Assembly (NCBI GenBank): GCA_963855995.1
Contig: OY979719.1
Span: forward strand, 620,001-684,000
DNA length: 64,000 bases
Direction: 5' to 3'
Source: Muricea muricata
Taxonomy: Eukaryota > Cnidaria > Anthozoa > Malacalcyonacea > Plexauridae
The position numbers were made by a program, and so were the translations under genes. The notes under the pieces were generated by a model, which ran no database searches, was not told where the DNA came from, and saw nothing but the letters and a program-made list of their open reading frames with translations. Shown piece after piece: positions 2,284 to 33,300 of this stretch (the stretch's first letter is position 1; each line of letters begins with the position of its first letter).

Positions 2284-3050
2284 TGATTTAATCAGTGCTC
2301 ACCTGACGTTTGAACCGTGTTTTATTTGGTAGTCTGAATTTCGTGATCTAATCCAATCTTCATCCTGTTGAAATCTTTCTTTGCCCCCCTCCTCACTATC
2401 CCCCTCCTAGGGTCTGTACTCCTCCTATAAGGTATACTTTAAGCTATTCATTTGTCGTAGTTACTGGAGAATTATTCATTTAGTTTGACAATTACATTTA
2501 TTTGATAACTACAGTGAAACATGTACTTTTATTGCCCCTTCGTCACCTAGCCCTAGCAAACTTGGCTAGTTACCCGGGTTTACCGATATTTCACAGCCCT
2601 GTCAATATTCTTCACCGGTGCACCCGGAATAAACCTACGACTGTCGGCAGAGCGTTGACTAACTCCTCATATAAGTGTCACGATTCTTAACTGAGGATTG
2701 AACCAACGATCGCAGGGATGGCAGGCGTTGCTCTGACGATTGGGCCAATTAGTCATTACTGTGTAGAATCAAACAATCAAGACGAAAAATTCTCCCGCGT
2801 AGTCTTGTGTTTCACTGTAGCTATTTTACAAAGCAGTTACGAATTAGTTTTCTGAGGAGATAGCGTCATCAATGAATTCGGGATGTTGCCCGCGCGCATG
2901 GATGACGCTATCGTGAACAGAAAAACATTTGGTATTTTATTACTTTCACAACGTAACAAAAAAATATTGCGATCATTCTTGAGGGTTAGCTTCAATCTCC
3001 TAACGTATGCAGTCAATACTTTGTATTTTAAAAACCTTTTCCCGGGGGTG

Positions 3051-3140
3051 TTTTAAGTGAACCCAAATAGATCTTATACTCCCGGCATTATGCCGGTTGT
3101 TTTTAGAAGAGTATAAGATCTATTTGGGTTCACTTAAGAC
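3051..3140. repeat. 29-bp-arm palindrome within duplication unit 1
   Basis: TTAAGTGAACCCAAATAGAT is followed by TCTTATACTC, a short GC-rich centre, and then the exact complement. Unit 2 has only a single arm (near 5850), so unit 1 gained an inverted copy of its own arm and the adjacent GGTTGTTTTTAGA. Confidence 0.85.
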
Positions 3141-3732
3141 GGCATTCAACTTTTTATTTAAAAATGTCATCCAGTTTTTCTTAAAAAAATTAACTGCGTG
3201 CGTGAAAATGACGCACAAGAATGCCTTCAAATTTTGTGTTGCGTTTTTTCTTGAGCTTGAGTTGTCCTTCCATATATACAGTTTAGTGTTTACACGCGTA
3301 CACGATTGCCAGCTGGTGCATTGCAACTGGAATATTGTCATTTTTTCAGTGGATTTTTGTCATTTCGAGAATTTTGTTCGTTGACTGCCCTCTGTGACAT
3401 GCTACGCCTATTGTGATTATTTAGTCCTCTCAATGTTGTAGGATCTTATCTTGTAAAAGTCTTCTAAACATCGTAATTATATATTTTTAAGGACTCCAAG
3501 TGAGAAAGTGAATACACCAACCCAGGACAAAACACGATGGGAAAGAGCTGATATGGACCTAAGAAATGAATCCCTAGCTGTGCCATAAAAATATGCCAGG
3601 ACGCAAATACCACCGCAATGTATGGTTTGTCAAAGTCATTTATAATCAAATTTCCTTACGTTTCTAATATTCTGAAATACTGCTTTCTATGTAATACGAA
3701 TTTTCTCCTTATTTTATGATGACCTACTGGAT

Positions 3733-3860
3733 ATGAATGATCCTCTTACCTCCTGGACCGACGTGATGTTCCGTGAAGAGTGGCACTGATGGCACTGATC
3801 ATAAACAGCATGATGAAACTAGACCAATCGTAGCAACAACGATCTCCGGACAGAATAAAC
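3733..3860 (+). pseudogene. Broken duplicate of the 6509-6640 exon
   Basis: This segment aligns with the exon at 6509-6640, sharing the ATG, CTCTTACCTCCTGGACC and the GTAAGTTTC donor. It carries a net deletion after GTGAAGAG that shifts the frame, plus a substitution giving an in-frame TAG (CAATCGTAGCAAC). It lies in the first unit of the 1.56-6.80 kb tandem duplication. Confidence 0.5.
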
Positions 3861-4164
3861 GTAAGTTTCTTTGCTAGTTCATCTTTCACTATTCTTTGCT
3901 TCGTAAATCTATCGCAAATTTTGCAATAAAGGTATTAATATGGCAATATAAATTAAGATCTCGAAGAACGTTGTCATCATCGGGAGGGCAATTAAATTAA
4001 GGCACACAAAGTAATAAGATCGTTCGCTGCCTGAAAAAACAATTGCTCTGCTTGTGACATCATGGGCTTTTTAAATATCCAAGATTTGGCAGATGACTAG
4101 TGACTTTGTCCTTCAATATTTCAGAAATAGTCCGGCAGATAGAAGCCGATATACTTACCATATC

Positions 4165-4789: not shown

Positions 4790-6800
4790 TTCAGCCATCT
4801 GTTTGTTAAGCGTCTTTCTTGAACTTTTTTCTCTTGGTGAAAATTATTTTTGACAATGAAAGCGATGAACACACTCTGCTTTCTTTTAAATCTTTTCTCC
4901 AGTGTAAGAATAATAGTGACTTCTCATGTATCAACTGCTGTATTAATAGTCTCTTCATTTTTCTTTACCAATTGTATTAGAACTTACTTTTATTGTTTTT
5001 CTTGTTTCTTTTTCTTTAAAACTTCATCTGCCGACTGATACAGTACGCTGCAATCTATCAAGGAACAGGAAATTCAGTCTTTATTCCAATATTTATCCTG
5101 TTGAAATCCTTTCTCCCTCTCCACTATCCTTCTCCCAGGGTAGCACCACATTTTCTGACTCCAACCTAATCTTTCTTCTGTACCTCCTTATCCCCTGTAC
5201 TCCTCCTATATAATATACTTTAAGTTATTCATTTGTCGTAGGTACTGGAGAATTTTTCATTTAGTTTGACGATTACATTTATATGAAAACTACAGTGACA
5301 CACGTACTTTTATTGCCCTTCGCCACCTAGCCCTAAGAACCTTGGCTAGTAATCCGGGTTCTTTCAATTACCGATATTTCACAGTTCTAATCACGTTGTC
5401 AATATTCTTCACCGGGGGAACCCCGAATAAACCTACGACTGTCGGCAGAGCGTTGATTAACTCCTCATATAAGTGTCACGAATCTTAAGTGAGGATTGAA
5501 GAAACAATCTCAGGGATGGCAGGCGTTGCTCTGACGATTGGGCCAATTAGTCATTACTGTGTAGAATCAAACAATCAAGACGAAAAATTCTCCCGCGTAG
5601 TCTTGTGTTTCACTGTAGCTATTTTACAAAGCAGTTACGAATTAGTTTCCTGAGGAGATAGCGTCATCAATGAATTCGGGATGTTGCCCGCGCGCATAGA
5701 TGACGCTATCCTGAACAGAAAACCAGTTGGTATTTTATTACTTTCACAACGTAACAAAAAAATATTGCGATCATTCTTGAGCGTTCGTTTCAATCTCCTA
5801 ACGTACGCAGTCAAATACTTTGTATTTTAAAAACCTTTTCCCCGTGTTTTAAGCGAACGCAAATTAATTTTATACTCCTCTAAAAACAACCAGCATTCAA
5901 CTTTTTATTTACAAATATCATCCAGTTTTTCTTGGTCCAAATTTTGTAAAAATAATTAACTGCGCACGCGTAATGACGCCCAAGAATGGCTTCAAATTCT
6001 CCATTTTGTGTTGCGTTTTTTCTTGAGCTTGAGTTGTCCTTCCATGAATAAAGTTTAGTGCGTACACGCGTACACGATTGCCAGCTGGTGCATTGCAACT
6101 GGAATATTGTCATTTTCTACGGATTTTAGTCATTTTGGGAATTTTGTCCGTTGACTGCCCTCTGTGACATGCTACGTCTATTGTGATAATTTAGACCTCT
6201 CAATAACCTAGTTTTTTTATCTTATCTTGTAAAAGTTTTCTAAACATAGTAATTATTCAATTTTTAAGAATTCCAAGTGAAAAGTGAATACACCAACTCA
6301 GGACAAAACTCAACGGGAAAGAACTGATATGGACCTAAGAAGTGAATCACTAGCTGTGCCATAAAAATATGTGAAGATGCAAATACTATCGCAATGTACG
6401 GTTTGTCAAAGTCATTTATAATCAAATTTCCTTACGTTTCTAATATTCTGAAACATTGCTTTCTATATAATACGAATTTTCTTCTTATTTTATGATGATC
6501 TACTGGATATGAGTGAGCCTCTTACCTCCTGGACCAACGTGATGTTCCGTGAAGAGAGAGCGAGTCTGATGACACTGATCATAAACAGCATGATGAAACT
6601 AGACCAATCGAAGCAAAGACGATCCCTTGATAGAATGAAAGTAAGTTTCTTTATTAGTTCATTTTTCAATTCCTTGCTTCGTAAACCTATCGCAAATTTT
6701 GCAATAAAGGTATATATGGCAATATAAATTAAGGTCTCAAACACGATGTCATTATCGGGAGTGCAGTTAAATTAAGGCACACAAAATAATAGGACCATTT
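4790..6800 (+). repeat. Tandem segmental duplication, unit 2
   Basis: The copy of 1560-4025 without the palindromic MITE: the uninterrupted site reads AAATTCAGTCTTTATTCC near 5070. It retains the intact version of the candidate exon at 6509-6640. The GATAGCGTCATC..GATGACGCTATC hairpin is present in both units (about 2857 and 5657). Confidence 0.88.
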
Positions 6801-7660
6801 GCTACCGGAAGCGATATAAACAGAATTCGATGTTTCGAAAGAAGAAACTTTTTGAGCGAAGAAAACGTCGGGAAGTTAGTAGTCACTACTAAGTTTGTCT
6901 CGTTTTATAGTAATTTAAAATCATAAGTAAGCAAAAATACTTAACGGAATTATTACTGTAAAATCAGTCACATACAAGAAAAGTAGTTTGTATAGGAAAT
7001 TACACGGTCCGAGAAGTATTAATGGAAATCACACGCGTGACTGTTTGGCGAAATGTCTATAATAGCGCGAGTGCTAAGCAAGAGCGGTATTATGAATATT
7101 TCGCCAAACAGCAGTGGCGGATCTAGCGTAAGTCAAAATAAATTACCACAGCTCATTCTAGGATATATTTACATTTTGAAATACCTTTAAAGCAAGTTCA
7201 TTGGTTAGATTTTATTCTTTTGAAATCTATAACCAATGACATTGTTATAAAGTTATTTTGAATTTAAAATTGAGCTGCTATAATTTATTTTGACTTACCC
7301 TGGATCCGCCACTGGCCAAACACAAGTGTGATTTTTCATTAATACCTCAAGGATAAGTGTAGTTTCCTATTAATATCATTTTGTCACCAAAGTTTTTAGT
7401 TTTTAAAAATCGCGCGCGGGCTCGCGATCCATGCCGATTAATTTTTAATCGGCACACTATGCCGATTAATGATTAATCGGCGCAGTTCTTAGCCAATCAG
7501 AATCCAGTAAACAAAGAAAAATGATATTAATAATTTAATCGTAATTATTATCTAACGGATACGATTTTTTTCGTTTCCAAAGGTGATGGGGTGTAAGGGA
7601 ACGCAAAAGAAAAAGACCAGAATGCAGAAGCTTGGACGACATAGACCAACAAATCAATAA
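6509..7660 (+). CDS. Candidate two-exon small protein (69 residues)
   Basis: An ATG at 6509 opens 44 codons (MSEPLTSWTNVMFREERASL onward) that stop exactly at a consensus donor (AATGAAA/GTAAGT, exon 6509-6640). A consensus acceptor at 7581-7582 (TTTCCAAAG) leads in frame to 25 more codons and a stop (exon 7583-7660). The second exon is strongly basic (KGTQKKKTRMQKLGRHRP). I recognise no family. Favouring a gene: paired consensus splice sites and frame retention. Against: short length, no homology, and a neighbouring duplicate copy that is broken. It may be the 3' end of a longer gene whose earlier exons I could not identify. The 942-bp intron contains a nested pair of MITEs. Confidence 0.3.
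6990..7370. mobile_element. Outer palindromic MITE, split by a second MITE
   Basis: Left arm ATAGGAAATTACACGGTCC through GTGACTGTTTGGCGAAAT; its complement resumes at ATTTCGCCAAACA and, after the inner element, continues CAAGTGTGATTTTTCATTAA to TTTCCTAT. The break at GCCAAACA is the target-site duplication of the inner element. Confidence 0.75.
7112..7314. mobile_element. hAT-type MITE nested in another MITE
   Basis: Terminal inverted repeats CAGTGGCGGATCTAGCGTAA and the complement of TTACCCTGGATCCGCCACTG. The 8-bp duplication GCCAAACA flanks it at 7103-7110 and 7315-7322 with one extra base on the left. CAGTGGCGGATC ends and 8-bp duplications are hAT hallmarks. Confidence 0.85.
7419..7475. 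repeat. Twin GCCGATTAAT hairpins
   Basis: ATGCCGATTAATTTTTAATC and ATGCCGATTAATGATTAATC follow each other, each a near-perfect hairpin. Confidence 0.8.
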
Positions 7661-8347: not shown

Positions 8348-9980
8348 CAGGGTGAGTAAAAAAAAACTGATGCCCTTTCAAATTCAAATTAGCCGCGAAT
8401 TTCATTACGGAACTTTAGGTATTCCCATAGGTATACAGAAAACAGATCGTGACTAAATACACAGTACAGGATGAGTAAAGAATGAGCATTTTTATTTAAT
8501 TCCCAGGGGAATTTAATATTTGTTTGTTCCTTAGTTAATTTGATTCATTGACAGTAACCATCAAATCAGTAGGATCATTATATTTTGCGCATTTTTAATT
8601 CCCTAGGGAATACACTATACTTTGCTTTCACGCTAGAGGTTTGACTTTGTAATGAGAATCCTCTTTGATTATAAATATATTAGGTATCTTGGTGCTTTCG
8701 AGTTTGTTTTAGTAAGCAGGAACAATGGGACGATTATGCCATTGTTTGTACGCACTAAAGCCAATTACGGAAGTGGTTTAAGAGCAGCCGCGAGGTACCA
8801 TGCTAATGAAGGCGTTTCGGTTAAATGAGTATGAGAATTGCGGTGAAGTTTTGAAATATTTTGATGCTTTGAGCTATGTAGAGTAACTGTGCTAGATATA
8901 GGGACCTTAAATTACACAGCAGCTATACGGTTAAGAACCTAAATTCCAATAGATGAGTCTTGAGTGAAAAAACTTGAGTTTTTAACGTTTTCAAATGATT
9001 TAAACTCTTTGTATTCTCATGCTTATTTGACCCAGCCTTAGACTTAGGTAAGTATTAGGTTTATATTTATTTCGGTCCAGTTAACACAACGAGAAGCCCA
9101 TGCCCTTTCAGCTAAGGTTTTACGCTTGAAAACGCAATCAAATACTCAGCCTAAGTGGGTTTAAGTAGCTAGAGATAACGTAATTTATCTTTTTATTTTC
9201 TTTTTTTGTTTATAACGTAATTTATTAGCTAAATGTATGGACTGTGAGGGTGTGCGCCGTGTGTAAGTTGCATGGGGTTAGGCTTATTAAAGGAATTAAA
9301 ATTTTTGAAAGTATGTTTCACCAAATTCTACCATTTGAAGGTCATATTAATGAAAAAGTTTCCTGAGTAAATATTATTATCATTATGAAAACAACACAGC
9401 TAACATTGATTTTTATTATTCCCAACCTTTTTTAGTAGTATTAGTGCATGCCATAATAAGAAATTTTGAACGAAATTGCGGCTCAAGTTTTGTATATTTT
9501 TGCAAGTTTCATGCATATATAAAACAGCAGGCAGCTCACCTGTTTGTATATAGGACCTTTTTAGGATTTTTTCTTTGCGTATGGCCTAAAATATCGGAAT
9601 AAATAACATTCACTATACATACTTTAACGAAATTTTAATTCTTTTAATTTTCGTATTTGGGTGGCAGTCGGGGTGGTGGTGGTGCATGCGGGTTTATCAG
9701 CTGTGAGTGACTGTGCGATGGTGAGGAAAGTGAACGTAACGAATGGAATGCAGGAGTTTAGGACCGAGGAAGACAGCTTAGAACTGAGGCAGGTAGGCAG
9801 TCGGTAGGATCAGCGGGGGGCACTTGTCATTTGGCTTTGGGAATCAAATTTGCATGGTGAATATTTAAGTCCACTAACGTTTGTTGTTTTAATTTGTCAG
9901 GTATGCGCGGCTGCTCTCTAGGGAAGATCAACTTAGCAATTTGCATTAGCATTTGCAAGGTTGGTCTTCTCTTTGCCGGC

Positions 9981-13651: not shown

Positions 13652-13834
13652 CAGTGGTGTAGCTAAGGGGGGGGGGGGGTGATGGGGGGCAACCGCCCCC
13701 CCCCCCCCCCCCAATTGTGTTCAAGACCATTCAAAAAGTCTAATTCTATGTAGAAGTTGCCCCTCCCCCTGGAATGCCTTCGCCGCTTGCTACTTGCCCC
13801 CCCCCCCCAAACAATGACCCTGGCTATGCCACTG
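13652..13834. mobile_element. hAT-type MITE with 8-bp target duplication
   Basis: Ends CAGTGGTGTAGCTA and TGGCTATGCCACTG are inverted repeats. AATATGGA lies immediately outside both ends (13644-13651 and 13835-13842), a perfect 8-bp duplication. The 183-bp interior is dominated by polyG and polyC runs that pair with each other. Confidence 0.92.
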
Positions 13835-13842
13835 AATATGGA

Positions 13843-14750
13843 TAGACTACATTATTGTCACTACATGGTTAGAAATGTTTTAGAACATAGAATGCCAACT
13901 ATGAGAATCCACTACAACCAAAAAACATACAAGTTGCAACAAATTATTACAGCAATATCAGGATATGCTTGCACAATTTCCAACAGCTTTTTGATGACAA
14001 CTCTGTTGTCACAAGTTGTTTCAACAACTTGTTGCACCATGTATCCAAAAACTTGTAGACAACAGGTCAGAGTATATACTGTCGTTGACCTCATCACAAA
14101 TTTAGGATTGGGATAAAAAAAGGACATCTGTAAGATCATATACCATGAACCTATTTTTCAATAACCTATTCGGGGCTGAGCCAAGTTTACAATCGGTCTT
14201 ATCACGTTAATTAGGAAGTTAAATGAATAGAACGTCGCCGCTCAAATACGTTTTTACACGCATGCTTTGCAGGAAATTTTATACTTTTTTTATTCAATAG
14301 TCCTCATTATTTTCCACATTTTAAAACTAACGGTAGCTTCCACCTACACTGCGGTTTTATTTCGGCAATCGCCGAATGAGAGCGAAGACCTGGACTAGCT
14401 ACTAGCAAAGATCAAGTATGGTTTCGACACGTGCAAAATACAAAGTTTAGTTTGTATGTTCAAACATTTCGCTATACTCGGCCTGATTGTCCACAAAATT
14501 CATCTGTATCATAAATCTAGATACTCTTCTACAACTGCTGATAGAAAATAAGGCATATTACCTTGAAATAAAGCCAGGATTGCTTCGAACTGACCTTCGC
14601 TAATACTTTCTATATGACAACCTCACCACGCGGAAAAAATTGTATGACTTGTACCTAATGAAGTACTAGCACCATTTTTGATTTTCTGAGAACACAGTGG
14701 GCTCATGATTAGAAAGGAAATCTATAATGCCCAATACAAAATCCGAGGTA
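13843..14750. other. Unassigned stretch left of the giant palindrome
   Basis: No exon or clear element. Around 13985-14080 there are CAACAAGTTGTTG-like motifs of the dispersed ACTTGT/ACAAGT repeat type also seen in TTC7 introns. Confidence 0.5.
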
Positions 14751-17329
14751 TTATTTCAGACAAAATTTGTTCAAAAACCAACAACTGAAACCAAGGCATG
14801 GTTACTAAGCTAAACGCGATCAAAGGTACTGGTAAGTAATTTCAACATGGCTTCCTTTTCTAACAAGAGTCAAAATATGAATATGGATGATATTGGATGA
14901 TATGGATTAGATATGGATGAGCTTTCTAATAAAAGTAATAATGAGGGCTTGAATATTCATGAATCGACGGAAAGTAGCGAGGTAAATAGAATTGGTAATA
15001 TTTTTCCTGAGTACAGACTGTGCGACTACGTGGTTTGTTTATGAATTTCACCAGTTTAATATACGTACGGATATTGGATGATATTAATAATATGAAAATG
15101 GTGCGCGGAGTCGCAGAGATACCAGACTTATTTCGAGTGTTGAACATGATATTCTAAGAGCGAGTGCAGCGAACGAGGGCATTTCCTAGCACCATGTATT
15201 TTTCTGTTTATTATATAAACTACAGTGTTTTCTACTAATATAAAACATCCAGAAGCTATTAGTTGATTGTTTGAAAAGCGATAATTTTCACATGTCATGA
15301 TCTCACATTTGAGATTATCAATTTTATCAGTGCTGGAAATCTTTATGAAGCACTGTACTTTAAATAATAAGTATTGATAGACTATGGTCTGTCTAGTCAC
15401 AAAGTTTAGTAATTCATTGCATGTAGTGATCATGTGATGGCAAACAGGCAGGTAAAAATTCGAGATTGTATTCAACCTACAATTATAGTCCTATATAAAA
15501 CCCACAAGTAAGTCTCTTTTGACTTTATTTTGTAATCAGCCGGTATGGTCTGGAAAGTATGGCAATTAGCCACTCAAGAATTTTTGTTGTGTTCAGGTTT
15601 GCATACTTGGCTTAATACTGAATATGGTGAATATGGCCAGTGCTAGGTATCTAACATGCACACTGAAGTGCATTTGACACATGTTTGCACACTGTACATT
15701 TGAAATTTTTGAAACCCGATATCTTGTTAAAAACAGCCATACTTTCCAGTCTAGGTCATCAGTCTACAGTATCTGACTGCCTATCAAAGTGGATTGTTTG
15801 TACTGCACAGCCAAGATACAGTATTGGGCTGCAATTTTGATGTCTTCTAATAAATTTTCTATTAAATGTCTTCTATTAAATTGCCTATATTTTAGTCCCT
15901 ATATATTTTCTATTAAATATTTTAAATCTCAGCACATAATCTTTCCAGTCTGGACTGCAGGTTCATAAACATGAAAATTTTCGAACAATCAACATTATTG
16001 ATTTCTTGTGGGTACAAGACTGTTGTTTGAAACATTTGAAAATGTGAAAATAATGCAACCGACTGTGGCTAGTTTGAAAATAAGCTAGTTAAGTGGACTA
16101 TTTTTTATCACTCCCTGTATACTACCCTTCTGCCCATGCCATCTTTTTGCAACATTCAGTAACTGTCTAATTAAGGTTAAGTTAACAGTATCTAGCCATC
16201 CACAGAAATTTAATGTTTATTTAATCAGAAATCTTTAGTAATGTTTGGTCACTATATACTTTGGAACTTCAGTATTAGTAGAGAATAGCCAACAATAAGT
16301 CTCACTCATGTTGGGACCTATATGTTTTTGTCTCCTTGGCTGTGACAATGCCATCATTCTAGCAGCTAAACCTGGGGCATAAAAAACATTTGAAAAACTT
16401 CATGAGATTTAGTCTGTGCAGAGATTGTGCAGAATGGAAATATATGAGCATGCACCCCCCCCCCCAATCATGAGTAATTAATATTTGATAATTATTTTTA
16501 GTCTCTGAGGCTGAGACCAACTGGCTGGACCAACATTTCAGTCCTGTAAAGTATGCATTCACCAAAGGATCTGGCCTGCACAGTCATATTTGGACAATTC
16601 AGTCATCCACGAAAATGCACAACATAAATTCCAACAAAACGTCTGGAAGTTGTTTTAGGAAAAGAAAGAAACTTTAAAAAGACACACAATGGATGTGCTG
16701 TAAAGCCATAGATTAAGGATAAACAGATGTGCAACTGGATATGTGCCAGTCTCTCATGTTCTATGCTAATATACGACGTCATATCCACGAACCATGAAAG
16801 TGTTCATAAAATCGTCAATTAATTGACATTTCTCTTTCTAATTCGTTATAAACTTTGGCTTGTGTACTCGCCAGTATACTGCGCATATGACCTGGTTTTT
16901 GTTGGCAGCATGAGCATCAGTAAAATAAAAAGGGATATTTATAAATCAAAATACAATATAATCATCTTATTACGAAAAAGAGTGCATGTACCATATACTT
17001 TTGCTAACCTCATACATATATTATTCAATTTTCAACATACCTTTGTCTCGCTACTAGCCTAGTACTCACTCTTAAGCGCTTAAGATAATATTCTCCCTCT
17101 CCAAAATGCATGGTTACATAAATGTAGTTGTATACAAGACCGAATTTTGGGAGAGGTGCGCGCCTTCCCTGGGAATAGAAGAGGTGCACACCTCCCCAAA
17201 AAACCCCCCACATTCCCTTACAATTTCTCCAAAATCTGGCCTTGGTCATATGTTAACTCGGTTTTTGCATGCATGCCACTTGATTTCTTATCTTTACTTC
17301 AAAGTTCAAATGGTCATTGTGGCCATGCA

Positions 17330-18812
17330 TGTGTCTTTAGTGTTGGAAAATGTTATTATAAGGATTGAAATTATTGTTTTCAGAGATTTTATGACTTTGG
17401 TTAAATAGGCATAAATTTTGACATTGTTTAACCAAGCCCATTATTACACGAATTATTCTATCTTCAGTGTTGGAAAATGTTATTATAAGGATTGAAATTA
17501 TTGTTTTCAGAGATTTTACGACTTTGGTTAAATAGGAACAAATTTTGTCATTATTTAACCAAGCCTATTATTACACGAATTATTGTGTCTTTAGTGTTTG
17601 AAAATGTTATTATAAGGATTGAAATTATTGTTTTCAGAGATTTTATGACTTTGGTTGAATAGGAACAATTTTTGTGATTACTTAACCAAGCCTATTATTA
17701 CACGAATTATTGTCTTTACCGTTGGAAAATGTTATTATAACGGCTGCTGTATTGTTTTCAGAGATTTTATGAGTTTGGTTAAACATGATCAAATTTTGTC
17801 ATTATTTAACCAAGCCTATTATTGCACGAATTATTGTGTCTTTAGTGTTTAAAAATGTTATTATAAGGACTGCTGTATTGCTTTCAGAGATTTTATGAGT
17901 TTGGTTAAATAGGAACAAATTTTGCGATTATTTAACCAAGCCTATTATTAGACGAATTATTGTGTCTTTAGTGTTTAAAAGTGTTATTATAAGGATTGCT
18001 GTATTGTTTTCAGAGATTTTATTAGTTTGGTTAAATAGGAACAAATTTTGTCATTATTTAACCAAGCCTATTATTACACGAATTATTATGTATTTAGTGT
18101 TTGAAAATGTTATTATAAGGATTGAAATTATTGTTTTCAGAGATTTTATGACTTTGGTTGAATAGGCATAAATTTTGACATTGTTTAACCAAGCCCATTA
18201 TTACACGAATTATTGTATCTTCAGTGTTGGAAAATGTTATTAGAAGGATTGAAATTATTGTTTTCAGAGATTTTACGACTTAGGTTAAATAGGAACAAAT
18301 TTTGTCATTATTTAACCAAGCCTATTATTACACGAATTATTATGTATTTAGTGTTTGAAAATGTTATCGTAAGGATTGAAATTATTGTTTTCAGAGATTT
18401 TATGACTTTGGTTGAATAGGAACAATTTTTGTGATTATTTAACCAAGCCTATTATTGCACGAATTATTGTGTCTTTAGTGTTGGAAAATGCTATTATAAC
18501 GGCTGCTGTATTGTTTTCAGAGATTTTATTAGTTTGGTTAAATAGGAACAAATTTTGTCATTGTTTAACCAAGCCTATTATTACACGAATTATTGTGTCT
18601 TTAGTGTTGGAAAATGTTGTTGTAAGGGTTGCTGTTAGTGCTGTATTGTTTTCAGAGATTTTATTAGTTTGGTTAAACATGATCAAATTTTGTCAATATT
18701 TAACCAAGCCTATTATTACATGAATTATTGTGTCTTTAGCGTTTAAAAATGTTATTATAAGGACTGCTGTATTGTTTTCAGAGATTTTATGACTTTGGTT
18801 AAACATGATCAA
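17330..18812 (+). repeat. ~126-bp satellite array, forward orientation
   Basis: CAGAGATTTTA recurs at 17381, 17508, 17635, 17759, 17885 and 18011 and on to 18776, giving monomers of 124-132 bp. Each monomer includes TTGGTTAAATA and its complement TATTTAACCAA about 18 bp apart, so each can form a hairpin, and an ACACGAATTATTGTGTCTTT block. Variant subtypes (GGATTGAAATTATTG versus GGCTGCTGTATTG) are interspersed. The ORFs across the array simply follow the repeat period and are not genes. Confidence 0.95.
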
Positions 18813-20840
18813 TAATTCGTGTGATAATGGGCTTGGTTAAACAATGACAAAATTTGTACATATTTAACCAAAGTCATAGAATCTCTGAAAACAATAATTT
18901 CAATCCTCATAATAACATTTTCAAACACTAAATACATAATAATTCGTGTAATAATATAGGCTTGGTTAAACAATGACAAAATTTGTACATATTTAACCAA
19001 AGTCATAAAATCTCTGGGAAGAATAATTTCAATCCTTATAATAACATTTTCCAACACTAAAGACACAATAATTCGTGTAATAATAGGCTTGGTTAAACAA
19101 TGACAAAATTTGTTCCTATTTAACCAAACTAATAAAATCTCTGAAAACAATACAGCAGCCGTTATAATAACATTTTCCAACACTAAAGACACAATAATTC
19201 GTGCAATAATAGGCTTGGTTAAATAATCACAAAAATTGTTCCTATTCAACCAAAGTCATAAAATCTCTGAAAACAATAATTTCAATCCTTATAATAACAT
19301 TTTCCAACACTAAAGACACAATAATTCGTGTAATAATAGGCTTGGTTAAACAATGACAAAATTTGTTCCTATTTAACCAAACTAATAAAATCTCTGAAAA
19401 CAATACAGCAGCCGTTATAATAACATTTTCCAACACTAAAGACACAATAATTCGTGCAATAATAGGCTTGGTTAAATAATCACAAAAATTGTTCCTATTC
19501 AACCAAAGTCATAAAATCTCTGAAAACAATAATTTCAATCCTTATGATAACATTTTCAAACACTAAATACATAATAATTCGTGTAATAATAGGCTTGGTT
19601 AAATAATGACAAAATTTGTTCCTATTTAACCTAAGTCGTAAAATCTCTGAAAACAATAATTTCAATCCTTCTAATAACATTTTCCAACACTGAAGATACA
19701 ATAATTCGTGTAATAATGGGCTTGGTTAAACAATGTCAAAATTTATGCCTATTCAACCAAAGTCATAAAATCTCTGAAAACAATAATTTCAATCCTTATA
19801 ATAACATTTTCAAACACTAAATACATAATAATTCGTGTAATAATAGGCTTGGTTAAATAATGACAAAATTTGTTCCTATTTAACCAAACTAATAAAATCT
19901 CTGAAAACAATACAGCAATCCTTATAATAACACTTTTAAACACTAAAGACACAATAATTCGTCTAATAATAGGCTTGGTTAAATAATCGCAAAATTTGTT
20001 CCTATTTAACCAAACTCATAAAATCTCTGAAAGCAATACAGCAGTCCTTATAATAACATTTTTAAACACTAAAGACACAATAATTCGTGCAATAATAGGC
20101 TTGGTTAAATAATGACAAAATTTGATCATGTTTAACCAAACTCATAAAATCTCTGAAAACAATACAGCAGCCGTTATAATAACATTTTCCAACGGTAAAG
20201 ACAATAATTCGTGTAATAATAGGCTTGGTTAAGTAATCACAAAAATTGTTCCTATTCAACCAAAGTCATAAAATCTCTGAAAACAATAATTTCAATCCTT
20301 ATAATAACATTTTCAAACACTAAAGACACAATAATTCGTGTAATAATAGGCTTGGTTAAATAATGACAAAATTTGTTTCTATTTAACCAAAGTCGTAAAA
20401 TCTCTGAAAACAATAATTTCAATCCTTATAATAACATTTTCCAACACTGAAGATAGAATAATTCGTGTAATAATGGGCTTGGTTAAACAATGTCAAAATT
20501 TATGCCTATTTAACCAAAGTAATAAAATCTCTGAAAACAATAATTTCAATCCTTATAATAACATTTTCCAACCCTAAAGACACAATAATTCGTGTAATAA
20601 TAGGCTTGGTTAAATAATCACAAAATTTGTTCCTATTCAACAAAAGTCATAAAATCTCTGAAAACGACAATAATTTCAATCCTTATAATAACATTTTCAA
20701 ACACTAAATACATAATAATTCGTGTAATAATAGGCTTGGTTAAACAATGACAAAATTTGTTCCTATTTAACCAAAGTCATAAAATCTCTGAAAACAATAA
20801 TTTCAATCCTTATAATAACATTTTCCAACACTAAAGACAC
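18812..20840 (-). repeat. ~126-bp satellite array, reverse orientation
   Basis: About 16 copies of the same monomer as the left array, all reverse complemented (TAAAATCTCTGAAAAC, AATAATTCGTGTAATAATAG). The order of variant subtypes mirrors the left array at a constant coordinate sum of 37914 over most of its length. Extra copies lie next to the turn and near 20500-20760. Confidence 0.95.
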
Positions 20841-23440
20841 ATGCATGGCCACAATGACCATTTGAACTTTGAAGTAAAGATAAGAAATCAAGTGGCATGC
20901 ATGCAAAAACCGAGTTAACATATGACCAAGGCCAGATTTTGGAGAAATTGTAAGGGAATGTGGGGGGTTTTTTGGGGAGGTGTGCACCTCTTCTATTCCC
21001 AGGGAAGGCGCGCACCTCTCCCAAAATTCGGTCTTGTATACAACTACATTTATGTAACCATGCATTTTGGAGAGGGAGAATATTATCTTAAGCGCTTAAG
21101 AGTGAGTACTAGGCTAGTAGCGAGACAAAGGTATGTTGAAAATTGAATAATATATGTATGAGGTTAGCAAAAGTATATGGTACATGCACTCTTTTTCGTA
21201 ATAAGATGATTATATTGTATTTTGATTTATAAATATCCCTTTTTATTTTACTGATGCTCATGCTGCCAACAAAAACCAGGTCATATGCGCAGTATACTGG
21301 CGAGTACACAAGCCAAAGTTTATAACGAATTAGAAAGAGAAATGTCAATTAATTGACGATTTTATGAACACTTTCATGGTTCGTGGATATGACGTCGTAT
21401 ATTAGCATAGAACATGAGAGACTGGCACATATCCAGTTGCACATCTGTTTATCCTTAATCTATGGCTTTACAGCACATCCATTGTGTGTCTTTTTAAAGT
21501 TTCTTTCTTTTCCTAAAACAACTTCCAGACGTTTTGTTGGAATTTATGTTGTGCATTTTCGTGGATGACTGAATTGTCCAAATATGACTGTGCAGGCCAG
21601 ATCCTTTGGTGAATGCATACTTTACAGGACTGAAATGTTGGTCCAGCCAGTTGGTCTCAGCCTCAGAGACTAAAAATAATTATCAAATATTAATTACTCA
21701 TGATTGGGGGGGGGGGGGGTGCATGCTCATATATTTCCATTCTGCACAATCTCTGCACAGACTAAATCTCATGAAGTTTTTCAAATGTTTTTTATGCCCC
21801 AGGTTTAGCTGCTAGAATGATGGCATTGTCACAGCCAAGGAGACAAAAAACATATAGGTCCCAACATGAGTGAGACTTATTGTTGGCTATTCTCTACTAA
21901 TACTGAAGTTCCAAAGTATATAGTGACCAAACATTACTAAAGATTTCTGATTAAATAAACATTAAATTTCTGTGGATGGCTAGATACTGTTAACTTAACC
22001 TTAATTAGACAGTTACTGAATGTTGCAAAAAGATGGCATGGGCAGAAGGATAGTATACAGGGAGTGATAAAAAATAGTCCACTTAACTAGCTTATTTTCA
22101 AACTAGCCACAGTCGGTTGCATTATTTTCACATTTTCAAATGTTTCAAACAACAGTCTTGTACCCACAAGAAATCAATAATGTTGATTGTTCGAAAATTT
22201 TCATGTTTATGAACCTGCAGTCCAGACTGGAAAGATTATGTGCTGAGATTTAAAATATTTAATAGAAAATATATAGGGACTAAAATATAGGCAATTTAAT
22301 AGAAGACATTTAATAGAAAATTTATTAGAAGACATCAAAATTGCAGCCCAATACTGTATCTTGGCTGTGCAGTACAAACAATCCACTTTGATAGGCAGTC
22401 AGATACTGTAGACTGATGACCTAGACTGGAAAGTATGGCTGTTTTTAACAAGACATCGGGTTTCAAAAATTTCAAATGTACAGTGTGCAAACATGTGTCA
22501 AATGCACTTCAGTGTGCATGTTAGATACCTAGCACTGGCCATATTCACCATATTCAGTATTAAGCCAAGTATGCAAACCTGAACACAACAAAAATTCTTG
22601 AGTGGCTAATTGCCATACTTTCCAGACCATACCGGCTGATTACAAAATAAAGTCAAAAGAGACTTACTTGTGGGTTTTATATAGGACTATAATTGTAGGT
22701 TGAATACAATCTCGAATTTTTACCTGCCTGTTTGCCATCACATGATCACTACATGCAATGAATTACTAAACTTTGTGACTAGACAGACTATAGTCTATCA
22801 ATACTTATTATTTAAAGTACAGTGCTTCATAAAGATTTCCAGCACTGATAAAATTGATAATCTCAAATGTGAGATCATGACATGTGAAAATTATCGCTTT
22901 TCAAACAATCAACTAATAGCTTCTGGATGTTTTATATTAGTAGAAAACACTGTAGTTTACATAATAAACAGAAAAATACATGGTGCTAGGAAATGCCCTC
23001 GTTCGCTGCACTCGCTCTTAGAATATCATGTTCAACACTCGAAATAAATCTGGTATCTCTGCGACTCCGCGCACCATTTTCATATTATTAATATCATCCA
23101 ATATCCGTACGTATATTAAACTGGTGAAATTCATAAACAAACCACGTAGTCGTACAGTCTGTACTCAGGAAAAATATTACCAATTCTATTTACCTCGCTA
23201 CTTTCCGTCGATTCATGAATATTCAAGCCCTCATTATTAGAAAGCTCATCCATATCTAATCCATATCATCCAATATCATCCATATTCATATTTTGACTCT
23301 TGTTAGAAAAGAAAGCCATGTTGAAATTACTTACCAGTACCTTTGATCGCGTTTAGCTTAGTAACCATGCCTTGGTTTCAGTTGTTGGTTTTTGAACAAA
23401 TTTTGTCTGAAATAATATCTGAAAATCCCCAATGCTAATA

Positions 23441-27300: not shown

Positions 27301-30300
27301 AAAATTAATTTCTAGTAGGGAATATATTGTATTTTGCATGTCTGACTCTACAAAACAATTAGATTACTTTCTCTGTAATGGTTCTGTGATAGTTCATTTC
27401 GTTGTTATTCTGATTGACTATCATCCCATAGAAGGGGGTATCTAATAGCTACAGTAATTTAGAGACGATGCATAAGCTAGATCGAGCGAATTAGTCACAC
27501 TGGACTTCTCTATCTGTTGGAAAGTCTATATAGATCTTATCGATTTGATCAAGTGTTAAACTGACTCTATTTATTGTAGATCTCGGCGATAATGTTTATC
27601 ACTGAAAAATACGGCATTACCATCCTGGTCATCCCCCAGTTCAGCTACGGGTAAATTCTTCAAACTTCTTTTATCAGAGACAATCTTGTCGATAAGGCCA
27701 GAACCAGTTTTCCTGATGTTAGGAACTCTGTAAAATAATTGAATCTGAAACATCTTGTCGTAAAATATATCTTTTAATAAGATTCTTAAAGGCATATGAA
27801 ATGAAATACAATTTACTGTATGTGAACATTATTTTGTTATAGCTCTGTATAGAAAAACCTGATCCTACCGGAGATATTGATGTCATAACTTATCAGGTAA
27901 TCAGCGTAACAGTACGGCAAGGGCCACTCACACGGCCTCCATGGTAGAACATGAAATTTTTTAACAATAACCTTTCAACTTCCATATCATAAAGTGTTTT
28001 CCATGTTTGTAACAATCTCTTACAAGTCACCAAAGCTTGATCTCCACCCAACCAAACTTCTTCCAGCTTTACTTTAATCAATAATAAACTAGAAATAAAC
28101 ATCTCACAATCATTGCCGATACTACCACTATCACCTTTTTCTCTTCAGTTCCGCGCAGCCACTCGCTGTCAAACGCCACAGACTTGCTGCAAATTATCAA
28201 CTTTGTCGACCAGTTACAACTTGTTAACATCAGTTGCAAAAAAACTTGTCTATTTATAAAGTTGGGGCAAGTCTGTTAAATTCAGGCTTGATACAACTTG
28301 TCTTTTGAAGACATGTTAAACCTTGTTGAAACAACCTGCAGCAGGCCTGCGGATGGCAAGTTTTGACAATCAACTTGTGACAAGTTTCTTGACAACTTGC
28401 AAAAGACTTGTCATCAACAAACACACAAGAACGCCTTCTGGATGGCAAGTTTTGACAATCAACTTGTGACAAGTTTCTTGACAACTTGCAAAAGACTTGT
28501 CATCAACAAACACACAAGAACGCCTTCTGGATGGCAAGTTTTGACAATCAACTTGTGACAAGTTTCTTGACAACTTGCAAAAGACTTGTCATCAACAAAC
28601 ACACAAGAACGCCTTCTGGTATCGGTTGTCGATCAAACCCGAGCACTAAAAAATGTTGCAATTTTCGCGTTTGTGACTGCGCAAAGTAATGATTATATTC
28701 GTCACACAGTATTAGCTAAACCACGTTTAGCAATTATTGATGCTTGCTGTTGTACTAATCAGCTGGTTTGTTAACAATTTTCTATTGGTATGTTGGAGAG
28801 AGGGAGTCATGCGGTTAGAACGGACCGAGTTTGTTTGGTCACAATTCTATTCAGACGTGCTATAGATTTTATCATACTTTATTATATGGTTATGGGTGTT
28901 TTACCGTAAACTATTCTCACTGACCATATAATAAAAAGAACATTACACGGTATCTTGAAGATATGAATATTTCATATGAATTTTCTCGTGTTGAAAACAA
29001 TATTTTACACAATATTGTCTTCATCACCCGAAAATAATATTCACATCTTCGCTACAGTGTAATACCTCTATATACGTGACATCTTGTCATGCTACGTGAT
29101 ACTTACGTGAAATCCTCTGGGTACTCTAATAAAGCTGTGTCACACGCATCTAAAGCTTCGCGATACTAAAAACACAAAGTAAACAGGACTTCATGTTCGG
29201 TACTGTTGGTGACTGCTGGACGTGCTTTTAAATTACATTATAGTGAGAGGCGTTTAAGGCCTATTAAAGTCAACAAGATACCAACACAGGCAAGCTGCAT
29301 GAGGTGGGAATTCTTCTCGGAAATACAGAAAGAGAAGCTAAAATTTTTTTGCAAGCTCATGTGCTAATTGGTATTGGATAACTTTGAGACATTGTGCATG
29401 AAAAATGGAGTATTGTTAGCAAATTGAAACTTTATTACAACCGATCATGACATAAGCAAATTGAAACTCTGTTAATCAATTGGAAATACTTTAAGTATTT
29501 TCCAGGAACCAATTTTCCAATGATCCATATATCACCCGCCACTGCTGTCAAAAGCTCGGTGGTGTTATGAGCCACTTTGCTAGGGTGACAAAATTATGAT
29601 ACCATAATTTAATTTGTACCTTTTTCTTGGATGACAACAACAAGACAAGCAACTGCAATGCTGCCAAATAGTTACAGTCTAACTTTAAAGCTGCATAAGC
29701 ATTACGGAGAGCTTTCGTTGTCTAAAAACAAGAAAAACACTACTATAATTACCAATTCATAGACCAACTGTCTGAGAAGAAAATCCAAAAAGTAGGGCTG
29801 CAATTCCACCAATTCCCCTGTCCAGAGTGTAACTTCCCCAAGCAATTACTAATAACCCCCTGACATCCTTGCAGTTTTATTACAAACTGATAGTACCTTT
29901 CTCATGAGAGATTGTGTTAAAGCCAGATGAAAAAGAGCTTCTTTGTCCATGGGGTCAAGTTCAAGGCATCTGGAAATGAAAATAAATAAACGAATGTTAC
30001 ATCTAGACTGCTCGTTGCAGTCTTGCACTGAGTCGATATCCACACCGGGTAAGCTGAAAAATAAGACCGTACGAATATTTATATACCTATCTATTGCCAA
30101 CGTGGCCAGGTAATTTTTCAGCTTTCTTGGTGTGGAGAGTTCACTACAAACACCACCACTCATATTGATGTATCTATCTATATATCAATAACTTTGATCT
30201 TACTTCTCAAAGGCATGAATTCCTTCTAAGTGTAGATCTTGTTTTTCTTTATTCGTTAAAACTAGTAAAAAAACGTCATAATATAACTAATTCTAACAAA

Positions 30301-33300
30301 ATTAGTTTATTTCGTTACCAATTACTGCATTACGGATAAATTATTAATGACAACTACATTAGAACTGCTTGACTAAGCCACCTTACGTAGAAAGATGTTG
30401 AGCCTACCTGTCGAAGCCTTGCAACAGCAGCCAATACCAAACGCCAAATATCCTCTTCCAATAATGGGTGTCTTTTGGTTGAGCTGAATCACACTTCTTG
30501 CCATTCCAACACCTTCATCATACTGTAACACACAAAAAATCAAAACACTACCGTAAAGCTTGTGTGCAAATCTTACGCAAGAAATACTACATACCTGGTG
30601 AAGGTTATTAAAGCACAACTTTGCTGCATGAAGTAATACTAACGGATCATTTGGACGAAGTTCATGACATTGCTTCAAAACTAGTACTGCCATAGAATAC
30701 TAAAGAAAGGAAAACAACATCTGGGTATTTTGATTCTTTTACAAAGCTGCTACAGAAAGTGATAATATTTTTATACCTTTCGTGCGTTAGCCAAAGCAAG
30801 ACCAAATTGAAACCACAAATGAAATTCTTCAAAAGCTAATTTCATTGCTCGTTCTAAACACTGATAGATGTACCAAAATAAGGTTACAATTAGTACTATA
30901 ATTGTAATCAATCGGTTACATTTCGGTCACACAAGGTTATCAACAATAGCTGACAATTTAGTCTGAATTTAGAATGAGAGATGACAACACACTAGCAACT
31001 GCCAAGTACCATCATCCGTTGAACCTGGTAAAACGCGAATTACAGTTTTATCTTTGCTTTACTAGATTTTGTACTGAAAGCTAAACTTGTGGTTGTAAAC
31101 TATTCTCTAATTTATCGAGTGCCAATACAAAGGAAAACACTGGTATAGTATACCAATAATCATGGTAATAATGGTATACCAAGTATGGTCTATTACTTTT
31201 TTCCCTATGCCAACCTTATTATTCCAGACAGCTTTTTAATGACTTAATGACGTCTTCTTATCGCTCAGGGACAAGGCAAAACATCAATTGACAAAGTACA
31301 AGGTTGGAAAAACCTGGAGACAAAATTTTTAGACTATGCAGGAAATACCTCAACAAGTAAAGGAAACTGAGCATATCTCGCCAAACCAATGGTTAAAAGA
31401 TTATAGATATGATTTCCTTCAGCTGTGCTTGACTTTCTAGCTTCAGCATTTTCTGGTGCAATACTTGATGTTGCATTATGCAGAACCTTGAGAGAGGAGA
31501 AAGGATGTTATTTTGCATTTTCTCCTTTAAACCTAAATTTTAAAGTCCTCTCCCCGGCGAAAATTTGTTCATGAAGTCATGAACTTTCATGGTCTGTTCA
31601 TGCTCTGTTCATCTGTTCATGCTTTCTTCAAAATGCATGAGCGGTTCATGCTCTGTTCATCAAGAGTTGTCAGCTAAAACTTAATACAACTGGTTGCTGC
31701 TAAGTTGAGGTAATAAGGGTCTGTTTTTAAACACCCTGTACATTTTTAATTAATGTATTTGTACTAACGTACAAATAGCATAACCTTGAGAAATAGCTAT
31801 GTGAAAATCGTAAAAATGAACATCATTTGCACACAACAGAGTTTTGTGGAACCTTTATAAACTACTAAGATTGAAACATAAGCTTATCATCGAAGTTTGA
31901 CTCTAAAAAAATGTGACTAAGATAGTTATCTGCTCTAAAGTACATATTACCCCTGCAGGCTTGTTTGTACAAAGAAAGCTTGGCCATCTGGTCGGCGCAT
32001 GAATAAATGTCAAGTTATTGGGAAACAATCTATGAGATTTAAGAACAAATTTAACGTATATCATGTATATACATGCAAGCAAATGACAAAAATTGTCGTA
32101 GTTCGTTGTGAGGTATCAGGTTATGAATATTCCTCAAATATTCATGAACAGTTTAATGAGAATTTCATGAATATTGTTCCTTAAATATTCATCAAATATT
32201 CATGAATATTTCCCAAATTTTTTTACAAATTTTTTTTTCAGAATTTTTTCCCAAATTTTTTTTCAAAAATTTTTCCCAATATTTTTGTCAATTTTTTTTT
32301 AAGATTTTTCCCAAATTTTTTTTCAAAATTTTTCCCCAAATTTTTCTCAAATTTTTTGGTCAAAAATTTTTTGTCAATTTTTTCCCCATTTTTTTCAATA
32401 TTTTTGACAATTTTTTTCCCAAAATTTTTCCCCAAATTTTTCTCAAATTTTTTGGTCAAAAATTTTTTGTCAAATTTTTTCCCCATTTTTTTTTTTCAAA
32501 TTTTTTTCCAATTTTTTTTTCAAAATTTTTTCCCAATTTTTTTTTGAAAAAAAAATGGGGAAAAAATTTGACAAAGAATTTTTGACCAATAAAATTGGAG
32601 AAAAATTTGGGGAAAAACTTTGGAAAAAATCTTGAAAAAAAATTGACAAAAATATTGGGAAAAATTTTGAAAAAAAATTTCCTAAATTTTTTCCGAAATT
32701 TTTCCCCAAATTTTTCTCAAATTTTTTGGTCAAAAATTTTTTGTCAAACTTTTTCCCCATTTTTTTTTAAAAATTTTTTCCCAAATTTTTTTTCAAAATT
32801 TTTTCCCAAATTTTTTTTCAAAATTTTTTCCCAATTTTTTTTTGAAAAAAAAAATGGGGAAAAAATTTCACAAAAATGTGCATGAACTTTGTTCACAAGT
32901 TCATGTTCTTTTGATGGATGTTCATGAACAATTTTCATGAATAATTCATCAAATTTTCGCCGAGGCGTAGCTCTTCTATTAACCCTCTCTCCATGGGGGG
33001 GGGGGGAGGGATTATATCTTTCAAACCTTCTAATAGGGAGGGGGGCTTAAGAGAGGTAAATATACTGTGCTTTTATGTTAAGTTTGGAATTCCCATATTT
33101 TTGTATCCTGAGTTTTGTCATAATGTTTAATTGTTTAAACAAATAGTTTTAACTTCATTCATTAATACATCGTACCAAAGATTCCTTGAGTAACAACAAT
33201 AAAATCACATCTTCTGTTATATTGCAAGGTATAAAACATAACCTAAAAAATTGAAAATAAGTGACAGATATTAAATCATAGTCAAGCATCTAGTGAAACA

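Follow-up and report, generated by a model that had tools for sequence, protein, structure and literature searches.

A large satellite-cored palindrome in the genome of Muricea muricata is very probably a non-autonomous foldback transposon

The stretch of Muricea muricata DNA analysed in the present study (the window: 64,000 nucleotides, C4:620001-684000, from a genome of 453 Mb in 74 contigs) contains a large inverted repeat, which raises the question of whether such a structure is a mobile element, and if so of which kind, or a product of assembly or of a single local duplication. In a preliminary description based on the sequence of the window, it had been reported as a near-perfect inverted repeat of approximately 8.7 kb with arms of approximately 2.6 kb around a satellite core that switches direction, had been likened to foldback elements, and had been surmised to be mobile. 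We consider this palindrome very probably to be a non-autonomous foldback DNA transposon, judging from its sequence and those of its relatives. Its features are as follows.

14738-14744, no strand: left target site duplication AAAATCC, the same 7 bases at both ends
14745-23421, 8,677 bp: complete inverted repeat, its ends set by other copies and by the duplication
14745-17329, plus strand: left arm, non-coding, with the terminus GAGGTATTATTTCAG (self-BLAST, arm alignment, terminus motif)
17330-18803, plus strand: 127-bp satellite, 11.6 copies (TRF)
18804-18820, no strand: turning point of the satellite, AAACATGATC meeting AATAATTCG, off-centre and common to most other copies
18810-20841, minus strand: 127-bp satellite, 16.0 copies (TRF)
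20842-23421, minus strand: right arm, non-coding, with the terminus CAGATATTATTTCAG on the minus strand (self-BLAST, arm alignment, terminus motif)
23422-23428, no strand: right target site duplication AAAATCC, the same 7 bases at both ends

The reported anatomy was borne out by measurement. Self-BLAST paired 14749-18812 with 23417-19363 at 95.3% identity over 4,076 columns, and the arms of the window copy, of 2,584 and 2,580 bp, showed 8 differences in 2,575 aligned bases when aligned with each other; the formation of a hairpin of very large size is plausible from the sequence. The absence of a coding region also held: the longest stop-to-stop frame was 120 aa in the arms examined, namely those of the window and one from another copy (L010), and 0/7 ORFs of the L010 arm reached the curated cut-off of Pfam (best E 0.011). 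A coding element was ruled out on the basis of these seven ORFs of one arm. To the right of the palindrome, a frame at 30376-30699 on the minus strand matched TTC7B over 33 residues (E 7.7e-5), and the adjoining gene is a TTC7 relative. Elsewhere in the window, TRF detected an 89-bp tandem repeat (28351-28619; 3 copies, 100% matches), and a large direct repeat was present at 2414-4035 and 5195-6810, pieces of which were 87-91% identical.

The arms had been described as unique sequence, which is the case inside the window, but they are repeated genome-wide. Among 1,385 candidate places for a 601-bp arm piece, 40 were scored, and all showed 97-100% identity. Exact matches to the 25-base terminus numbered 137 genome-wide (72+65) and those to an inner-arm 25-mer 183 (87+96), with 0 in the reversed control for each, and the genome is estimated from these two counts to hold about 90 copies with recognisable arms. 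Twenty copies, picked among the best matches to the 601-bp piece, were retrieved as 10 kb stretches, which contained both arms in 13/20 cases and a single arm in the remainder (L009, L011, L013, L015, L023, L024, and L025). The satellite was present in 20/20 and ran in both orientations in 18/20; the single orientation in L013 and L024 reflects either a stretch that is too short or a missing second half. The length of the satellite array differed among copies.

Although palindromes of this type can be misassembled, the proposal that the window contains an assembly artefact or a one-off local inverted duplication, the alternative named in the preliminary description, is scarcely credible, because copies occur across many contigs, differ in their flanks, bear 7-bp duplications, and vary independently in core length; we regard it as ruled out by these dispersed copies. 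The off-centre turning point of the satellite was conserved within 4 substitutions in 19/21 copies whose centre was retrieved (L016 and L017 differ), and since these copies have the same junction, the palindrome probably arose once and then spread as a unit.

The distribution of the family was assessed using 99 of 100 listed termini (137 in total), located on C1-C10 and collapsed to loci, with C1 (6 loci) and C9 (8 loci) being excluded from the tests. C4-C8 and C10 (98.3 Mb) together had 53 loci versus 8 on C2 and C3 (132.4 Mb), and the outer fifths of the former held 39/53 versus 21.2 expected, an unevenness for which insertion bias, weaker selection, or segmental duplication may be responsible. 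Like termini lying far apart in the end regions of C2 and C3 had the appearance of palindromes of 110-136 kb, which were rejected because the inner-arm 25-mers revealed ordinary arm pairs. In two copies (L029 and L030), a foldback-like repeat, designated repeat B, lies near the arm end and interrupts the arm, part of which is absent; it carries 21-bp and 12/25-bp tandem repeats plus inverted repeats of its own, and looks like a different foldback-like repeat rather than an autonomous copy of the family. An array at 32126-32848 of the window, with 12/25-bp tandem repeats of the TTTCCAAATTT type and inverted halves, resembles the core of repeat B in its TRF units.

Regarding the ends of the element, pairs were chosen by eye among 100 listed of the 137 termini, with the addition of L010. 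A script identified an exact 7-bp duplication in 19/23 end pairs, 7 being the only exact length among those tested from 3 to 11; one further pair had a 7-bp duplication with 1 mismatch, and 3/23 were without a duplication. L010, a 24th pair that was missed by the script, showed ACAAAAG versus ACCAAAG by eye (1 mismatch). The 19 exact duplications represented 11 distinct targets, with 9 pairs at TTTTATC. Moreover, the two ends of an element were not alike: all 19 copies with an exact duplication had GAGGTATT at one end and CAGATATT at the other, a GAG end was combined with a CAG end in 21/23 pairs evaluated, and the end sequences of the family are GAGGTATTATTTC / CAGATATTATTTC. The two like-ended pairs (L041/L042 and L031) had no duplication, and the ends of L037/L038 are unlike, yet no duplication was present. 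Chimeric copies of Galileo are flanked by differing 7-bp sequences in the cases described in a previous study (PMC3573991), and the like-ended pairs without a duplication in the present study parallel them. Three copies (L011, L013, and L024) all end, near position 9540 of the retrieved stretch, against the same repeat of ~70 bases, with two GAG ends and one CAG end, which suggests repeated insertion at one site.

Long inverted repeats with tandem repeats form most of the element, and its copies are dispersed with target site duplications, both of which are features that define the foldback class. The assembly-wide search for further arm copies found many of them, flanked by 7-bp target duplications, and, with defined ends that differ from each other, one anatomy common to dispersed copies, and nothing recognised that is coded, these results support the earlier likening to foldback elements as well as the guess of a mobile structure. 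A transposase acting in trans would recognise one GAG and one CAG end, and the whole palindrome would be moved by cut-and-paste.

Transposition may instead have been rare, with most copies having spread as passengers inside a mobile repeat, designated repeat T, or by segmental duplication. The TTTTATC site, common to 9/23 pairs, is embedded in ~70 near-identical bases on either side. In the 40 of 88 candidates that were scored, 21 half-sites of T were found, corresponding to 19 insertions, two of which were seen from both sides, and the site was uninterrupted in 19 places with 83-100% identity; by eye, 18/21 half-sites adjoined a listed terminus, all 18 in the same orientation. Among the T-site arms compared, L031_R and L032_L were mutually closest (0.55%; next 1.36%). 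Repeat T, which extends at least 320 bases to the left and ~235 bases to the right of the insertion, carries a short palindrome close to one of its ends, ~280-bp tandem units, and the element at one fixed site (L078 768-1287; L079 and L080), and we presume it to be a little like non-autonomous Helentrons. This pattern at the T site is best explained by a single insertion followed by composite spread, and some copies are probably passengers. As an account of most copies, however, the passenger model is possible but doubtful: the 10 other duplicated targets are unrelated and each has its own exact 7-bp duplication, such that independent transposition did take place repeatedly, L031_L does not group with L031_R and L032_L, and the T site is not present in the window.

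Besides transposing, the foldback element that we propose appears to undergo recombination between its own arms. Within-copy arm divergence had a median of 0.6%, and none of 20,000 re-pairings was as low (p < 5e-5; 14 two-armed copies); the nearest right arm was that of the same copy for 5/14 left arms (p = 0.002) and that of another copy for 9/14. The omission of L027, the left arm of which is damaged or misaligned, changed the result little. Since arms resemble their own partner more than the arms of other copies, these results point to recombination between the arms of one copy, which may pair with each other and have their likeness maintained by gene conversion. A crossover between the arms may sometimes flip the core. 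Relative to the ends, 12 copies had the core in one orientation and 5 (L011, L014, L020, L023, and L028) had it in the opposite one. Core flipping is a lead rather than a result, because a single end was the basis for classing each of these 5; core orientations all agreed in 5 copies with both ends read. The CAG end of L014 was located on the far side, ~1.1 kb past its expected position, which would make this copy a true reversal.

The size of the core was also variable. Inner arms were spaced by 768-5,611 bp in 34/35 neighbouring plus/minus pairs (among 100 listed of the 183 25-mers), and the exceptional pair, C3:18591019-18884915, had inner arms 293,896 bp apart. Three samples taken between the latter (18.612, 18.720, and 18.830 Mb; 1,003 bases) consisted entirely of the 127-bp satellite in a single orientation and carried a local variant of the unit; 33/35 short gaps between exact 25-mer matches in this block deviated by no more than 3 bp from a multiple of 127, and the variant 25-mer had 3,291 occurrences genome-wide. 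Based on the three points sampled, the core apparently grew into a satellite block of ~294 kb between the same arms. Unequal exchange or slippage would lengthen and shorten the satellite, and one copy may have run away to this size; it is possible that C3:18591019-18884915 is a centromere or heterochromatin block. A second array, in the minus orientation, has its start at C3:10955289, and the matches listed remain dense over at least 13 kb from there. Further matches to the first 25-mer adjoin a right arm at 11.007-11.008 Mb of C3, and the array would span 53 kb (C3:10955289-11008350) if it were continuous. Another right arm is located 15.8 kb past the arm at 11.008 Mb, which suggests local duplication.

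A broader proposal, to which we attach little probability, is that the family readily makes satellite DNA, with the arms recombining, the unlike ends being retained as the sole mobilisable pair, and the core running to a chromosome-scale block (~294 kb on C3 and perhaps the second at C3:10.955-11.008 Mb) that may be heterochromatin or a centromere. The origin of satellite DNA is a long-standing question, and its stages seemingly coexist in this genome, where many copies have cores of 0.8-5.6 kb and one has a core of ~294 kb still flanked by the same transposon arms. In addition, fixed unlike ends together with the similarity between the two arms of a copy make the rules of foldback transposition and recombination testable.

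Which transposase moves these elements is a related issue. We lean slightly towards a Galileo-like enzyme of the P superfamily in view of the 7-base duplications, the foldback anatomy, and the genomic P-transposase matches, which number at least 150; duplications of 7 (to 8) bp characterise this superfamily and Galileo, and the length was exactly 7 bp in 19/23 pairs. Many of the genomic P matches are in long open frames. C1 holds 64 of the 113 matches examined, but only 6 of the listed palindrome termini loci. No P partner was found near the termini: for 113 of the at least 150 matches, distances were examined to 180 terminus-like places, made up of 81 looser matches and, from C1-C10 only, 99 of the 137 exact termini, and the shortest distance was 25 kb. 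In addition, no transposase or remnant thereof was present among the 7 ORFs of one arm (L010). An autonomous partner with the ends of the palindrome was similarly not found among the parts of the lists of P matches and termini compared. A match to the first 17 terminal bases with a non-family base after it occurred once, beyond the L014 copy. The first 13 followed by a non-family base occurred 81 times versus 42 in the control, leaving room for a distant relative with similar termini, which may exist. Two P loci (L076 and L077) match the window at 13709-13835; this match looks like a short dispersed repeat and was rejected as a link to a partner, and none of the P proteins of L068-L077 matched the window. 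An open 732-aa frame for a hAT transposase lies at 541-2736 of L032 within the arm, which resumes after it with an 11-base overlap; it looks like a nested insertion and was not retained as a partner.

Two other superfamilies were weighed. Mutator has been proposed for Tetris and is said, in the statement on this point in the source (PMC4079207), to include most foldback elements, and the anatomy is similar; however, a Mutator enzyme is unlikely since all 19 exact duplications were 7 bp, with none of any other length from 3 to 11, versus the 8-10 bp of Mutator and Tetris. Dada elements have duplications of 6-7 bp and insert into multicopy sequences, which agrees with the length of the duplications and the recurrent use of the T target here, but they are a very improbable source of the enzyme: as described in the relevant part of the report (PMC3706591), they are without terminal inverted repeats, whereas these are kilobases long here, and those with definable ends were all located in specific small RNA genes, whereas 11 distinct targets, among which RNA genes may be present, were found in the present study. 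Duplication length and inverted repeats thus led us to reject Mutator and Dada as formal homes of the family, and a P-superfamily enzyme remains our slight preference.

FB elements of D. melanogaster have long inverted repeats with tandem repeats, as does the palindrome family, but differ in their ~9-bp duplications and short inner repeats. The literature searched, in which the family was compared by description rather than by sequence, contains no listing that is evidently this family, which may already be present in a repeat library. The idea of an undescribed type is, nevertheless, not supported, because tandem-repeat foldback elements as large as this one, and the conversion of such elements to satellites, are already documented in the relevant passages on Galileo of D. 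willistoni (PMC4168063) and Tetris of D. virilis (PMC4079207). Galileo copy 112, of 9,021 bp, lacks a transposase segment; its inverted repeats measure 4,246 and 4,680 bp, and it contains direct tandem repeats. In D. willistoni, 7-bp duplications are found at the majority of Galileo copies (PMC4168063). The likeness observed is one of anatomy and comprises a non-coding palindrome of ~9 kb, inverted repeats of more than 4 kb with tandem repeats, and mostly 7-bp duplications. In contrast, some Galileo copies hold transposase sequences, whereas no transposase copy was found here, and tandem-repeat arms are described for one D. willistoni copy only, whereas the satellite was present in 20/20 copies retrieved in the present study.

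Satellite arrays have arisen from the tandem repeats of the foldback element Tetris, and, as far as this source describes them, Tetris/DAIBAM elements of the D. virilis group resemble the palindrome family in being non-autonomous, in having arm tandem repeats of variable number from which satellite-like arrays of kilobase size arose, and in having an autonomous partner that was not found (PMC4079207). Tetris has duplications of 8-10 bp, inverted repeats of up to 1,735 bp, and three complete copies, versus duplications of 7 bp, arms of ~4 kb with the satellite, many copies, and one core of ~294 kb that is still between its arms in M. muricata. Taken together, these comparisons suggest that the palindrome family works like Galileo or Tetris, a likeness of working that need not mean membership of either.
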